This document shows, in pieces, positions 1 to 44,231 of a stretch of 47,623 nucleotides of DNA. The notes beneath the pieces are model-generated. The model saw only the letters and a list, made by a program, of their open reading frames with translations, made no database searches and had not been told where the DNA came from. How positions within the stretch are numbered: position 1 is the stretch's first letter; the number at the start of each line of letters is the position of its first letter. The stretch is taken from NCBI GenBank assembly GCA_002719335.1, contig PBHE01000005.1:12330-59952 (forward strand), written 5' to 3'. A program made the translations under genes and the position numbers. Source of the DNA: Acidimicrobiaceae bacterium (GTDB lineage: Bacteria > Actinomycetota > Acidimicrobiia > Acidimicrobiales > Poriferisodalaceae).

Positions 1-1269
1 GTACTTGACGAACTAGTAGAACGCCACACTTCATGGTGGGCGGCCGAAGATTGGATGACTCAGTTCGGCCCGGACCCTGAGCGCAGTAACTATCCCGACA
101 AATATCGGCCGCTGATTCCTGAAGCCCTGTGGGGTAACTATGACGTGCCTGGGTGGACCGCTAACGGAATCGAACCCTACGGGGTTCAAATGGATCCCGT
201 AGCGGCAGATGGAATGCTCTTCTTCAAAGGCTTCTTCGGCTTACTTCTAGGTCTGCACCGCTATGTATCAAATGATCCCAAGTGGAACAGCCCCTTTGAA
301 ATGATTCGCGACGGCGAACACACTTTTACCTGGACTCACTCTGGCGTAATGAGCCATCTCGCTGAGCAATGGCACGGGCGTCAAATGGGTTGCCATTGCG
401 AAAACACAAAAATATGGCCCTACTGACTGGCTGGTGCCGGTCTCGGTCTGAGACTTCACGATCAACTTCTCGACACAAACCACCATGGTGCTTTTGATCA
501 CTGGTGGGGGTACGCGGCAGACAACTACATAACTTGGGACGGAGACCAAGCGGTCGCCATGGACCTTTACTATGACCCCGTCGTCGATGAACATGTCCGA
601 ACTCCGGTCGGATTAATCGCGCCGACTTGGTACCTCGCCCCTCAACGCAGAGAGGTGGCTGAAACAGCGTGGAGGTTTGGCGCCTCGGTAATGGGTCTAT
701 TGGGGGATGGAGATGTCGGCATGAATGATGCTCGCGATGGTCTCATGTTGGCCTGGTTTACCGGCGAGTTTGCTGACGGAGCCATCAAAGAGAAGCTGTG
801 GGAAGCCTGCGACACTTTCTTCGAACCCACGCAGGATCCAGACTCCGGCGAGTTCACCTTTGGTTTCGGCCTCGGTGAGATTCACCCTCGGGGACAATTT
901 AATGCCCGGGTCATGGCCGGCTGGGTCTGCCAGCCCGGAGCGTGGGCCCAAATATTCGACAATCCGAATCTGGCAAAGCATTCCCAGCCTTGCGTGGAAA
1001 GAGTCGACTTTCCGCGAGTCGCAATGAGTCAAGCCCACTGGAACGAAGGGTCGCTGCATCTAGCGGCTGACCCATGCAACGGCGCAGCGAATGGCACTCG
1101 GACAACGATGACTATCCGCCGTCTACCCACTGATGGTGAATGGATTCTTAAAAGTAGCGATGAAACATTGACTTCCTGGGACGTCGCGGGAGGTTCAACA
1201 CAGATCGAGTTGATCGCTGACGGGTCGTCCTTCACATTGACCGCTTTAGATGAAACAGTAAGCGCATGA
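1..1269 (+). CDS. Linalool dehydratase/isomerase-like protein with in-frame UGA (candidate selenoprotein), 5' partial
   Basis: The frame is open from base 1, so the N-terminus lies outside the window. It runs 141 codons, meets a single TGA at 424-426, then continues 280 sense codons in the same frame to a TGA at 1267-1269. Residues before the TGA read CHCENTKIWPY and after it LAGAGLGLRLHDQL, a seamless continuation. This resembles the (alpha/alpha)6-barrel Ldi family, whose Castellaniella member converts myrcene, linalool and geraniol; I recall catalytic Cys171 and Cys180 there. Here the Cys of CEN and the TGA codon are also nine codons apart, so the TGA replaces the second catalytic Cys. A SECIS-like hairpin follows at 434-459. 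The gene overlaps the next by ATGA, which argues against decay. TGA ends other genes here, so the codon is not generally reassigned. Alternatives: nonsense mutation (TGC/TGT to TGA) or sequencing error. Family call from recalled motifs, moderate certainty; substrate unknown. Confidence 0.72.
434..459 (+). promoter_or_regulatory. SECIS-like hairpin just downstream of in-frame UGA
   Basis: GTCTC (440-444) pairs perfectly with GAGAC (450-454) around a five-base loop GGTCT (445-449). A G-T pair (439/455) extends it, and after a small internal loop GTG (434-436) pairs with CAC (457-459). The loop GGT starts 19 nt after the TGA at 424-426. Bacterial SECIS elements sit inside the coding region directly after UGA and present a GGU-type apical loop to SelB. 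The E. coli fdhF element, as I recall it, has the same GGUCU loop at the same distance. The element is also translated, encoding the GLGLRLHD stretch. Confidence 0.7.
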
Positions 1270-2240
1270 ATTCCGCCGTTGAAACTGCTACTGGACCCGT
1301 TTCGGCATCAGAGCTGGGTCGAGTACTGATGCATGAACATGTTTTCGTCATATCTACTGAAATCCAGCAGAACTACCCCCAGGAGTGGGGAGAAGACCAA
1401 CTTCGGATTGATGACGCCGTCGACCGGCTCACCGAACTAAAGGCAAACGGCATCGACACCATCGTCGACCCAACAGCGATTGGACTCGGTCGCTACATCC
1501 CACGGATTCAAGCTGTTGCAGCCAGAATCGATCTCAAGATCATCTGTGCCACGGGCCTTTACACATTTAACGAACTTCCCCACTATTACCGACGACGCAC
1601 CGCCAGCAAGACTGATGCCCTCACGACCCATTTTGTTCAAGACATTGTTAACGGCTTCGCCGATACCGGAGTCAAGGCTGGCGTCATAAAGTGCGCGACC
1701 GACAAGCCGGGTCTGACGCCTGACGTTGAGCGGGTGCTTCGCGCATGCGCGCAAGCTCATCGAGAAACCGGTTGCCCCATAACTACCCACACGAACGCCG
1801 AGCGAGAGCGGGGGCTTGATCAACAACAAATCTTTGCCGAAGAAGGCGTCGATTTGACTCGGGTAGTGATCGGACACTGCGGAGACTCTCAAGATCTCGA
1901 TTACCTACAAAAGCTCCTTGACGCTGGAAGCATCCTTGGCATGGATCGATTTGGCATCGACGGCTACCTCACGACAGAACAACGAGTCGATGTCGTTGCT
2001 GAACTTTGCCGACGAGGCCACGCCGATCAACTGGTATTAAGCCACGACGCTTCCTGCTACATCGATTGGATCGAGGGTGAGGTACCGCTCGCTCCTCTGC
2101 CGAACTGGCACTACCTACACATCAGCAAAGACGTCATACCCGCCCTTCTCGCTGCCGGTGTGGCGGAGTCGCAGATTGAGACCATGTTGGTGGACACGCC
2201 GCGAAGGTTTCTGCAATCACAGAATCTTGGCGGGTACTAG
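1266..2240 (+). CDS. Phosphotriesterase-family metal-dependent hydrolase
   Basis: 324 aa, an amidohydrolase-superfamily TIM barrel of the phosphotriesterase/lactonase type. The binuclear metal ligands are all visible: H23 and H25 in MHEHVF, K142 (carboxylated lysine position) in VIKCATD, H175 in THTNAE, H204 in IGHCGD and D261 in SHDA. Such enzymes hydrolyse lactones, phosphotriesters or related esters in the cytosol; substrate cannot be read from sequence. The start ATG lies inside the ATGA overlap with the Ldi-like gene, so translation is coupled and the two probably act in one pathway. The stop is 10 bases before the thioesterase start. Confidence 0.85.
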   Translation: MNSAVETATGPVSASELGRVLMHEHVFVISTEIQQNYPQEWGEDQLRIDDAVDRLTELKANGIDTIVDPTAIGLGRYIPRIQAVAARIDLKIICATGLYTFNELPHYYRRRTASKTDALTTHFVQDIVNGFADTGVKAGVIKCATDKPGLTPDVERVLRACAQAHRETGCPITTHTNAERERGLDQQQIFAEEGVDLTRVVIGHCGDSQDLDYLQKLLDAGSILGMDRFGIDGYLTTEQRVDVVAELCRRGHADQLVLSHDASCYIDWIEGEVPLAPLPNWHYLHISKDVIPALLAAGVAESQIETMLVDTPRRFLQSQNLGGY

Positions 2241-2250
2241 CCTCGCAAAC

Positions 2251-2598
2251 ATGAGCGAACTACAAGTCGGCCTCCTTTTTAGTGACACAGTCGAAGTAAC
2301 GGACGAGATGTCGCCACCGCATCTGCCGACCAAGGTTTTGTCCACTCCGGACATGGTCGGCCTTATTGAGGGCACGTGTTTGTTTGGCGTCCAACCCCAT
2401 CTTGACGAAGGACGAACCACGGTAGGCATTCATGTGTGCGTAAGCCACGAAGCTGCCGCTGCTTCAGGAGAAAGTGTCACAATCGATGCTGAACTAGCAG
2501 AAATCGACCGTAAACGGCTCGTATTCAATGTGAAGGTCAGCCATGGGGACACCTTGGTGTCCCAAGGAACACATCAGCGCTTTATCGTCGGTGGATAA
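2251..2598 (+). CDS. FlK-like hot-dog thioesterase
   Basis: 115 aa from ATG 2251; the frame is open further upstream but inside the previous gene. The hot-dog thioesterase pattern resembles fluoroacetyl-CoA thioesterase FlK: STPDMVGLIEGTC carries the Thr/Ser and Glu positions, and GRTTVGIHVCVSHEAA carries the conserved GxTxVG strand and the catalytic-type His. Expected role: cleavage of a short acyl-CoA or protection from a toxic one. It is the third gene of the Ldi-like operon. A TAGCCT 7 nt before the ATG could also give a leaderless transcript. Specificity for a fluorinated acyl group is not implied. Confidence 0.75.
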   Translation: MSELQVGLLFSDTVEVTDEMSPPHLPTKVLSTPDMVGLIEGTCLFGVQPHLDEGRTTVGIHVCVSHEAAAASGESVTIDAELAEIDRKRLVFNVKVSHGDTLVSQGTHQRFIVGG

Positions 2599-32621: not shown

Positions 32622-32978
32622 TCATCGTCGAGTTGGTGGCGGATCGCCCGTGTAGAGATTCTTCACTCCACCCTCTTGATACGAGGCTGCAGCGGCATCC
32701 TTAAAGCGAGCCGAGGCCTCGTATTCCTCTATGGGATATTCATCATGTTCGGCCACCACTCGGATCTCGGTCACGTCTCGGATGTCAAGCCCTAACCGTT
32801 CCGCTATTTCAGCGTCCGACAAACCACGTTTTCGGGTGCCATCGTTTGGCAAAAACTCGTTGATATCAACTTGATAGGAATTGGTAAGAGCCAACACTTC
32901 AGCTCTGTAGCGGTCGTAAAGGTCTGGGTCGACGACGTGGAAACCGTTGAGTTCTCCTCGCTCTATCGGGCTGCTCAT
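32622..32978 (-). CDS. Small hypothetical partner of the iron-sulfur pair
   Basis: 118 aa from ATG 32978 inside an ATGA overlap with the upstream iron-sulfur gene; the frame further upstream is not coding. LSDAEIAERLGLDIRDVTEIRVVAE has a helix-turn-helix-like pattern, but the acidic protein (ends GDPPPTRR) looks more like an enzyme subunit than a regulator. No cysteine is present. No family recognised; the tight coupling suggests it is part of the same complex. Confidence 0.6.
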   Translation of the reverse strand: MSSPIERGELNGFHVVDPDLYDRYRAEVLALTNSYQVDINEFLPNDGTRKRGLSDAEIAERLGLDIRDVTEIRVVAEHDEYPIEEYEASARFKDAAAASYQEGGVKNLYTGDPPPTRR

Positions 32979-33832
32979 ATAAGCACCCGCTGTTCCGTGC
33001 CCACCGGGCATGCACGAATACATTCGAAGCACTGCCCTTGGCTGACTCCCGAATATGTGATTGACCACATAGTTCGTGTAAAGAAACTGCCGTAAAGGAT
33101 CATCTTCCGTTTTCTGGCGTCAGGCTCGTCCAGAACTCGTTCGAGGGCGGCTTGATAGCCGGGGGTCCAGTAGTGATACACCCGGTCGCGGCATTTTTCT
33201 TCGTTATAGCGCCGTTTGATCACTAACCCTTCTTGGATTTCACCTCCCAAGCAGCCACCGTCGTCGATTGGGCAAACCGCCATGCATGGAGTTGTCCCTT
33301 TTTCATCCCACATCTCCACGCATTGTGGCGCCGGACAAGCAGCCTCTTGTAACGGCCCGTCGACTGGAAGGGGAAGCGTGGTCAAAATTACGGTTAAGTA
33401 GAGAAAGCCATAAGTAGGGTCAAGAACTGGGCCGGCCAAACTTGCACTACCTGCCCCTGACGCGATGGCTGCAGCTTTAAAATCAAGAAATGCTTTGTCG
33501 TTCTCATCTGTGGACGTCGGAACGTTGAGCGCGTAGTACCCGAAAGTATCTTCGATGTGTCGCGCGACAGAACTACCCAGCGCAGCCATTCGGTCAGCTG
33601 TGCCGACAGTTTCCATCACTTCAACCCGAGGGCTTTGCCATTCAGCGGCGCGAGGAGCGGCTCCACCGAGCACGATCATCGACTTAACGTCCGTCAATAG
33701 GTCTGATGGACGAAGGCCGGGTTCAGCGTCTTCGAGAAGAGCTGGGTCGCCTACCCTGGCAACTTCGGCGCCCCTTTTTCGGGCCATTTCAAGTAATCCA
33801 GACTTGATCGATACCCAATCCAGTTCATCCAT
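32975..33832 (-). CDS. QueG-like double iron-sulfur protein, copy B
   Basis: 285 aa from ATG 33832, which overlaps the preceding stop as TAATG. Nine cysteines at 166, 171, 183, 187, 194, 214, 268, 271 and 275 match copy A exactly with an offset of 12, including TPCMAVCPIDDGGC and QCFECIRACPVG. A GLG-type turn is replaced by ASGAGSASLAGPVLDPTYGFLYL, as in the QueG/reductive-dehalogenase iron-sulfur region. Likely binds two [4Fe-4S] clusters and forms a heterodimer with copy A. Epoxyqueuosine reductase activity is not claimed: the length is shorter and the context is catabolic. Confidence 0.75.
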   Translation of the reverse strand: MDELDWVSIKSGLLEMARKRGAEVARVGDPALLEDAEPGLRPSDLLTDVKSMIVLGGAAPRAAEWQSPRVEVMETVGTADRMAALGSSVARHIEDTFGYYALNVPTSTDENDKAFLDFKAAAIASGAGSASLAGPVLDPTYGFLYLTVILTTLPLPVDGPLQEAACPAPQCVEMWDEKGTTPCMAVCPIDDGGCLGGEIQEGLVIKRRYNEEKCRDRVYHYWTPGYQAALERVLDEPDARKRKMILYGSFFTRTMWSITYSGVSQGQCFECIRACPVGTEQRVLI

Positions 33833-34725
33833 TATTTCAACTTTCGTCGGTACCGACCTACGGGGCAGACGCGCATGCACTCAAAGCACTGGGAGACGCT
33901 CTCCTTGTACCTGCCGATCGAGGACATGTTTCTTCGAAAATCGTCCGAGTAGATAAGTTCGCGTCGTTCGTCCGCGTCATCGATTCCAGTCAAAATCTCG
34001 ACCTGCTTGATGTGTCCCCGTATTCCGAAGTTCATGGCGCGGGTAGAACAACGTTCTCGGTCGAAGAAACTGCTCGTGATCTCACCGTCTTCAATCGTGG
34101 CGTCGATGCAACCGCCTTCATCGGCCGGGCACACCGCCATGCAAGGTGTTTTCCCTTCCATCTCGTACATGCGCACACATGACCGAGCGGGGCACACATT
34201 CTCTTCGAGTTGGTGATCCGGCGTCAGCCGCATAGTGGTGATAGCAGCCGCAAAGAACATAATCCCATAGGTCGGGTTAAGAATGATGTTTGCGGCTATG
34301 GACCTGGTGCCTAGCCCGGCTAACACGGCTGAAAGCATCATGCTCAGCGGCGGTTGTTGCCCAGAAGTAGGCAAGGCTGGGGCGTGCATAGCTAAATAGC
34401 CATGAGTTCGTTCTATATGTTCAGCAATAACGATCGATGCAACGTTTTCGCGAAAGTCGTAGCCGGTGATCTCCATCAATCGTCGATTGGGGCTTTGCCA
34501 GGCCGCATTTGTTGGGCCAAGGGACGCGGACACGACGACGCTCTGGGCACCTGGAAGAAAATCTTCTGGCCTGTGTCCTACCGGGACATACTCGTTGAAC
34601 GCATCTGCCGCAGCGACGCCGACAAGCGTTGCCCCGGCGGTTATCCCAACTTGTTTGATGGCGTTTGTTACGACCTCTAGGTCGCCGGGGTCAGTCGCTT
34701 CGACTTCCCCCTCAACTGTCGTCAT
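33832..34725 (-). CDS. QueG-like double iron-sulfur protein, copy A
   Basis: 297 aa, with AGGGGA near the ATG. The N-terminal region (about residues 20-120) is followed by GLGTRSIAANIILNPTYGIMFF, the motif near the corrinoid/iron-sulfur domain of QueG and reductive dehalogenases. Cysteines at 178, 183, 195, 199, 206, 226, 280, 283 and 287 include TPCMAVCPADEGGC and QCFECMRVCPVG (CxxCxxxCP). First gene of a three-gene coupled unit. It may carry electrons or bind cobalamin; corrinoid residues cannot be judged by eye. Confidence 0.75.
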   Translation of the reverse strand: MTTVEGEVEATDPGDLEVVTNAIKQVGITAGATLVGVAAADAFNEYVPVGHRPEDFLPGAQSVVVSASLGPTNAAWQSPNRRLMEITGYDFRENVASIVIAEHIERTHGYLAMHAPALPTSGQQPPLSMMLSAVLAGLGTRSIAANIILNPTYGIMFFAAAITTMRLTPDHQLEENVCPARSCVRMYEMEGKTPCMAVCPADEGGCIDATIEDGEITSSFFDRERCSTRAMNFGIRGHIKQVEILTGIDDADERRELIYSDDFRRNMSSIGRYKESVSQCFECMRVCPVGRYRRKLK

Positions 34726-43634: not shown

Positions 43635-44231
43635 TCAACATTTCACTCCCCTACCTGCGCAATAGACGCATCCGCCTCGCCCTTGTTTTATTGACGAATG
43701 TCGCGGTGTTACTTCGCGTCCACAGGCGTCACATCTACATCGCCACGGGATCTTCGACCCTGGATAGGGCTCTAAGGGTGTCATGCCAGCCGCGGCCATT
43801 AACTCTCTCGCGTCCTTTTCGTTGACCTTTCGAGACACCGAACGTTTCTTGTTGGCGCAAGTTCGACAACCGCCACCGTTACTTTTCACATTGTGGAACG
43901 AGGGCGAACACCTGGTTCCACAGATCGTGCATTTACACAGCCACGCGGCCTTAGCCCCTGGATAAGGTTCCAGCGGTAGGAGCCCTGCTGATCGCATCAC
44001 CGGCACCGTTTCAACGTCAGTGAAGCGGCGAGACGATGACCTTTGTTCAACGCCACAGAAGCGGCATCCACTTCCTCTCTTCACGGACGTGTAGAGCGGC
44101 GTAACTTCATGGCCGCAGCTTTCACATTTGCATTTCCATGGGGTATCGGCGCCTGGGTACGGCTCAAGAGGCGTGAATCCAGCCCTTTGCATGACGGGCA
44201 AAGTTTCGGCGTCGGTTAAACGGTGGCGCAT
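43635..44231 (-). CDS. Triple-repeat zinc-ribbon protein
   Basis: 198 aa made of three repeats of about 65 residues. Each has the element GxxPLEPYPGxxxxW, then CxCxxCG (C34/36/39, C99/101/104, C165/167/170) and CxxC about 17 residues later (C56/59, C122/125, C188/191), joined by TP..HS.VK.G.GG. Similar treble-clef repeats occur in proteins tied to homing or phage endonucleases and DNA binding. No nuclease domain is present here. An in-frame TGA lies eight codons before the ATG. Probably nucleic-acid binding; function unknown. Confidence 0.7.
   Translation of the reverse strand: MRHRLTDAETLPVMQRAGFTPLEPYPGADTPWKCKCESCGHEVTPLYTSVKRGSGCRFCGVEQRSSSRRFTDVETVPVMRSAGLLPLEPYPGAKAAWLCKCTICGTRCSPSFHNVKSNGGGCRTCANKKRSVSRKVNEKDARELMAAAGMTPLEPYPGSKIPWRCRCDACGREVTPRHSSIKQGRGGCVYCAGRGVKC

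Follow-up and report, generated by a model that had tools for sequence, protein, structure and literature searches.

The window analyzed here, a 47,623-nucleotide stretch of an Acidimicrobiaceae contig, begins inside a gene whose reading frame is open from base 1 to a terminal TGA (1267-1269) and holds one internal stop, also a TGA (Table 1). The gene starts at an ATG 237 bases upstream of the window (L020:9764) and comprises 501 codons in total; its 5′ part, just upstream of the window (L020:9764-10000), contains ambiguous bases. The stop codon overlaps the ATG of the next gene, at 1266, as ATGA. Our reading thus agrees with a first-pass annotation of this DNA on the singly interrupted frame, on the overlap with the next start and on its view that TGA is not reassigned globally, since TGA terminates this gene and others. 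The source genome (G000; 2.32 Mb, 50 contigs) is 82% complete. Elsewhere in the window, we note a pair of neighboring, similar proteins that carry iron-sulfur-type Cys clusters (CxECxxxCPVG) at their C-termini and whose frames overlap by 49 bases (32975-34725, minus strand), and a protein of three four-cysteine zinc-ribbon-like repeats (CxCxxCG ... CxxC) at 43635-44231, also on the minus strand.

Table 1. Features of the selenocysteine (Sec) locus and loci of predicted double-Sec relatives. Positions are those of the window.
Feature	Position	Strand	Basis
Putative Sec-containing gene of the linalool dehydratase/isomerase (Ldi) family	1..1269	+	PF18566, E 3.8e-7; 5′ end beyond window edge
First catalytic Cys codon, TGC (Ldi C171 equivalent)	397..399	+	HMM alignment with Ldi chains 7ad2/5hlr (VCEP)
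TGA, predicted Sec codon at the second catalytic Cys (Ldi C180 equivalent)	424..426	+	Alignment with Ldi VQC; TGA in 45 and Cys in 8 homologs
Predicted bacterial SECIS hairpin	439..455	+	Stem 439-444/450-455, loop GGUCU 445-449
Phosphotriesterase-family hydrolase/lactonase-like gene	1266..2240	+	PF02126, E 8e-101; same place in L033-L039 and L043
FlK-type thioesterase	2251..2598	+	PF22636, E 1.4e-28; in this position in most close-clade members
Predicted double-Sec loci			L029, L091, L095-L099, L101, L102, L104, L115-L120, L123

When read through the TGA, the window fragment matches the Pfam family Ldi (PF18566) with 30.4 bits against a gathering threshold of 26.1. The same family is matched by 15 of the 15 members of our first alignment (best E-value 2e-17), the full-length relative L033 reaching 36.5 bits. 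A phmmer search of the window fragment against the PDB returned nothing real; a profile search succeeded instead, and the sole credible matches of the family profile were Ldi chains (E 3e-5). The HMM alignment places G-C-H-C-E-N-T-K-I-W-P-Y-U of the family on G-I-V-C-E-P-D-N-Y-F-V-Q-C of Ldi, so that the UGA falls on the second active-site cysteine of Ldi, C180. The C-x8-C spacing is identical in Ldi, and in the present family the two aligned columns hold C...U, U...U or C...C. C171 and C180 of Ldi correspond to C170 and C179 in the numbering of PMC6600392, where both thiols were essential, exchanges to Ala and Ser yielding folded but inactive enzyme.

For the close relative L033, AlphaFold2 (with 37 homologs) gave a model of mean pLDDT 90.9, all of whose top matches are structures of Ldi (Foldseek, E 4e-10). 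In a VIA-align comparison, Ldi gave a Z score of 33.9 (2.5 Å over 324 residues), with the next fold at 18.5. As modeled, the protein is an (α/α)6-barrel of the Ldi type. With Ldi of Castellaniella defragrans (PDB 5G1U, 5HLR/5HSS, 5I3T; PF18566) it shares the fold, the position and spacing of both catalytic cysteines, and two motifs, C-E at the first Cys and K127-G128. It differs in the predicted Sec at C180 (in relatives also at C171) and in an extra C-terminal β-rich region of about residues 410-495; overall identity is about 15%, and there is no evident signal peptide. In the HMM alignment, a conserved Phe (Phe157) stands where Ldi has His129, a residue with an active-site role. The only two near-invariant Cys columns in 37 sequences are the catalytic pair, and the capping disulfide of Ldi (C48-C101; PMC6600392) is not conserved. 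Because of the exchanged His129 and the lack of conserved cysteines for this disulfide, the name “linalool dehydratase” (EC 4.2.1.127) is unsuitable for the protein.

Homologs were sought in 84,980 species genomes, which yielded 13 loci, and further loci came from the class, the order, one family and one other phylum. Homologs were counted after identical stretches had been removed. At the column of the window TGA, 45 distinct genes likewise have TGA (hereafter Sec genes): 28 are of the Cys...Sec type and 17 have TGA at both catalytic sites. Cys occupies both sites in eight homologs, and three have lost the pair (Ser/His or Thr/Ala). A homolog on a Streptomyces plasmid (34% identity, annotated “hypothetical protein”) is likewise Cys...Cys. 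The first-pass annotation had held that Cys or TGA in aligned homologs would speak for Sec; apart from His or Ala in the three loss-type genes, the column contains nothing else, and never Trp. The gene is constrained on both sides of the TGA, with same-frame Ka/Ks of 0.02-0.03 on the 5′ side of the TGA and 0.05-0.09 on the 3′ side. The latter values indicate strong purifying selection, and we therefore conclude that the part 3′ of the UGA is translated in frame.

Most Sec genes occur in the window’s own order (records named Acidimicrobiales or Acidimicrobiia), and L045, L107 and L108 come from the phylum to which a Myxococcales MAG belongs. In a maximum-likelihood tree, the catalytic-site states are clustered, with 7 changes in total and with Cys...Sec genes nested among Sec...Sec genes. 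We also observed a Cys...Sec homolog (L044, CAJXCK010000001.1) in a MAG labeled Gammaproteobacteria whose genome contains no tRNA-Sec; its presence there may reflect transfer or mis-binning.

The hairpin downstream of the TGA consists of GTCTC (440-444), GGTCT (445-449) and GAGAC (450-454), with the first loop G at nt 19 after the TGA, exactly as the first-pass annotation had described it. Both strands of the 47.6-kb window were scanned for a TGA followed, after 16-23 nt, by a small GGT-containing loop on a stem of at least 5 bp; this pattern occurs twice, at the site in the gene and once on the opposite strand. Comparison across the family separates the two kinds of gene. All six stem pairs and the GGUCU loop are present in 45 of 45 Sec genes and in none of the eight Cys...Cys genes, which retain only 2-4 of the six pairs, and one stem pair covaries, being U-A in some genes and C-G in others. 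Codon choice follows the same division: the Leu-Gly-Leu codons in and beside the loop are CTC GGT CTG in every Sec gene, and the Arg of the hairpin is always AGA or AGG in Sec genes, most other Arg there being CGN. In the Cys homologs, by contrast, Gln or Lys replaces this Arg and the loop codons are variable. In fact, the gene-wide minimum of synonymous diversity (6-codon window) lies at codons +3 to +8 after the UGA, with 0.23 against a mean of 0.56.

Folding energy is less telling than this comparison. The first-pass annotation had suggested RNA folding as a check, and the hairpin has −7.1 kcal/mol in its minimal form and −9.9 kcal/mol with three flanking pairs (433-462), but its stability alone is not exceptional (z −0.5), and folding of an isolated 40-mer favors a different structure. 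Since single-sequence stability is ordinary, we built the case for a SECIS on comparison and not on energy. The SECIS of E. coli fdhF has the same loop, GGUCU, starting 19 nt after its UGA, as in the window hairpin. The stem sequence otherwise differs from that of fdhF and, unlike in E. coli-type SECIS, a bulged U is not evident in the window hairpin, U17 being paired in the prediction. The bSECIS model (PMC13188914) describes a loop of 3-9 nt, a stem of 4-16 bp, a G in the first two loop positions, a distance of 16-37 nt from the UGA and an MFE of at most −7.5 kcal/mol. The window hairpin falls within these constraints with a loop of 5 nt, 6 pairs, G in first position and a distance of 18 nt, the energy being that of the 433-462 structure, as the minimal hairpin stays at −7.1 kcal/mol. 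It also resembles the drawn model (PMC13188914, Fig. 2A) in its 5-6 bp upper stem, 18-nt spacing and leading loop G.

Genes for Sec synthesis and insertion are found in the source genome. selA (391.9 bits) and selB (286.2 bits) are neighbors on contig C36, and selD (363.6 bits) lies on contig C12 (L022:4285-5360, minus strand), all three above curated cut-offs. The selD gene has an in-frame TGA of its own (GAG-U-ACK) and is a second Sec gene in this genome, and Sec decoding is therefore likely in use there. The Sec form of SelD (UxxK) and the window protein are thus alike as Sec genes of one genome, whereas SelD is an unrelated protein and a common, known selenoprotein. Of the sel genes that the first-pass annotation had named, selC alone was not recovered: neither a covariance search nor ARAGORN nor BLAST with a relative’s selC found tRNA-Sec in the 82%-complete assembly. 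The weak covariance matches were, according to ARAGORN, tRNAs for Ser, Cys, Leu, Thr, Tyr, Asp and Gly, and BLAST gave short fragments only.

In close relatives (L053-L060), selC is present and adjoins a gene that reads as a sigma-70-type factor. This whole stretch is missing from the source assembly, where only a 117-base match of 77% identity remains, and the absence of selC is consequently best explained by assembly incompleteness. A tRNA-Sec that exceeds the family cut-off occurs in about 41 of the 44 genomes with a Sec gene, the exceptions being G000, G1019 and G406; scores in the relatives are mostly 63-68 bits, and a subset is read by ARAGORN as tRNA-SeC(tca). A few of the genomes were obtained along two search paths and may represent one species. 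Three genomes of the same order with Cys...Cys genes (G662, G577 and G517; two of the three less than 80% complete) are without tRNA-Sec, while Cys...Cys genomes of the Myxococcales phylum have it. We note that tRNA-Sec is also kept in the genomes of the pair-loss homologs L121/L124 (G640; Thr/Ala) and L032 (G227; Ser/His).

In sum, the central claim of the first-pass annotation, Sec insertion at UGA 424-426, is supported by the TGA/Cys column, by a SECIS confined to the Sec genes and by selA, selB and selD. Judging from sequence, we put the probability of Sec insertion at this codon, in a protein of Ldi fold, at roughly 95%. SelD would make selenophosphate and SelA would convert Ser-tRNA-Sec; SelB, on the in-frame hairpin, would then deliver Sec-tRNA(UCA) to the UGA. 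Sec would take the place of the second catalytic Cys, near the first, in the active site of the (α/α)6-barrel.

Other readings of the TGA fare much worse. SelB/SECIS-guided recoding to other residues, for example to Cys by an unusual tRNA-UCA, occurs in nature, and the failure to find selC in the source’s own assembly would agree with it; yet the relatives carry a canonical tRNA-Sec(UCA), and selA and selD exceed their cut-offs here, which leaves insertion of another residue very improbable. The draft state of the assembly and the ambiguous bases close to the window could suggest a nonsense mutation, a pseudogene or a sequencing or assembly error in one assembly. This is extremely unlikely, since the TGA is shared by 45 distinct genes, Ka/Ks is low downstream of it and the SECIS is conserved; the genes come from many independent assemblies, one of them the single-contig 5-Mb genome G157. 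Termination at the TGA followed by re-initiation would give two proteins (1-426 and from ATG 559), and an ATG-started ORF at 559-1269 is present. However, the residues between the TGA and position 559 are as conserved as the rest, the predicted fold is one continuous barrel, the SECIS is found only alongside TGA, and the double-Sec genes would require two closely spaced interruptions, all of which makes two separate products hardly credible. Genome-wide reassignment of UGA (e.g., to Trp) or reading by a near-cognate tRNA has nothing beyond the open frame in its favor and is practically negligible, given the TGA stops of this and other genes, aligned homologs with Cys and never Trp, and the presence of selA, selB, selD and a SECIS.

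Sec insertion appears to go further in relatives of the window gene. In the 17 genes with TGA at both catalytic sites, the two UGAs are 27 nt apart (H-U-E-N-T-K-I-W-P-F-U), and RNAalifold predicts two consecutive hairpins, with the second UGA included in the loop of the first. The eight pairs of this first hairpin are present in 17 of 17 double-Sec genes, in 1 of 28 single-Sec genes and in 0 of 8 Cys genes; the one single-Sec gene, L094, is nested among the double-Sec genes. Its codons CCR and GGA occur in 17 of 17 double-Sec genes. These genes share 21 conserved Gly columns, of which only two are invariant in codon: the one in the SECIS loop (GGT) and the one at codon +3 (GGA). The latter pairs in the first hairpin, though GGA is the rarest Gly codon in the double-Sec set. 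Base changes in the first hairpin are all compatible with pairing and are one-sided, without double compensation, and its support therefore comes from conservation. For its loop to begin with G, the closing G-U pair must be open, and in three genes the leading base is A; because of this loop-start base, the first hairpin fits the bSECIS model only partly.

A single SECIS serving both UGAs is disfavored, since the first UGA would precede the start of its loop by 46 nt, beyond the 16-37 nt range of bSECIS. The favored reading, from the predicted RNA structures, is that of two SECIS elements, the first with a Sec codon in its loop. We consider it probable that in these genes both catalytic cysteines are Sec, each UGA with its own SECIS-like hairpin and one Sec codon inside the apical loop of the other’s SECIS, which would be a new arrangement. 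The active site would then pair two selenols as acid/base or nucleophile in a non-redox lyase/isomerase. Double selenoproteins are known, for example UxxU Prx-like proteins and the metal-binding double selenoprotein MbdU (PMC13188914, Table 1). The 17 relatives resemble these in having two predicted Sec residues in one protein, but differ in the spacing of 9 positions between these residues, both of which would replace catalytic Cys in an active site of lyase type, and in the two consecutive hairpins with the second UGA in the first loop.

The neighborhood of the window gene gives some indication of function. In its clade, the gene is accompanied by genes for a 3-hydroxyisobutyrate-dehydrogenase-like and an acyl-CoA-dehydrogenase-like protein, followed by the phosphotriesterase/lactonase-like and FlK-type thioesterase genes, with an FMO-like flavoprotein nearby, and on the basis of these enzymes it looks like a region for catabolism of a hydrophobic carbon compound. 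The order HIBADH / acyl-CoA dehydrogenase / Ldi / PTE is found only in the closest clade and was rejected as a general guide to function; as other Sec clades have different neighbors, we assign no pathway. Ldi is oxygen sensitive and is thought to use acid/base or covalent Cys catalysis on linalool (PMC6600392, PMC6013536). We tentatively suggest, at slightly less than even odds, that the window protein has lyase or isomerase activity toward an alkenol-like or terpenoid compound and that Sec serves it as acid/base or nucleophile. As to what selenium would contribute, a low-pKa selenolate might serve as acid/base or nucleophile in dehydration, hydration or isomerization of an alkenol, alkene or similar hydrophobic substrate, or Sec might guard an oxygen-sensitive dyad against over-oxidation; this too is a possibility to which we give a little under half the weight.

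Neither Ldi nor PF18566 appears in an inventory of May 2026 that covers 119 prokaryotic selenoprotein families, no NCBIfam model (June 2026) matches any of 37 family members, and a search of openly accessible journal papers found none that mentions both Ldi and selenoproteins. The first-pass annotation had proposed a new selenoprotein family. This holds in so far as the family is unlisted in both resources, but the enzyme family itself is known and appears here in its Sec form. What is new, then, is the Ldi family as a selenoprotein together with the double-Sec layout, while decoding of the window gene would follow the standard mechanism. Annotation with TGA as a stop splits such genes in two or three, and the enzyme consequently goes unnoticed.

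Most known selenoprotein families belong to the thioredoxin-like redox world; the one added here lies outside it, with Sec replacing catalytic thiols in a family whose characterized member performs dehydration and isomerization. The natural Cys...Cys, Cys...Sec and Sec...Sec versions would allow a direct test of what selenium contributes to such chemistry, and they bear on the disputed mechanism of Ldi, acid/base or covalent. The double-Sec genes, with their consecutive hairpins, make the ribosomal decoding of two nearby Sec codons testable.
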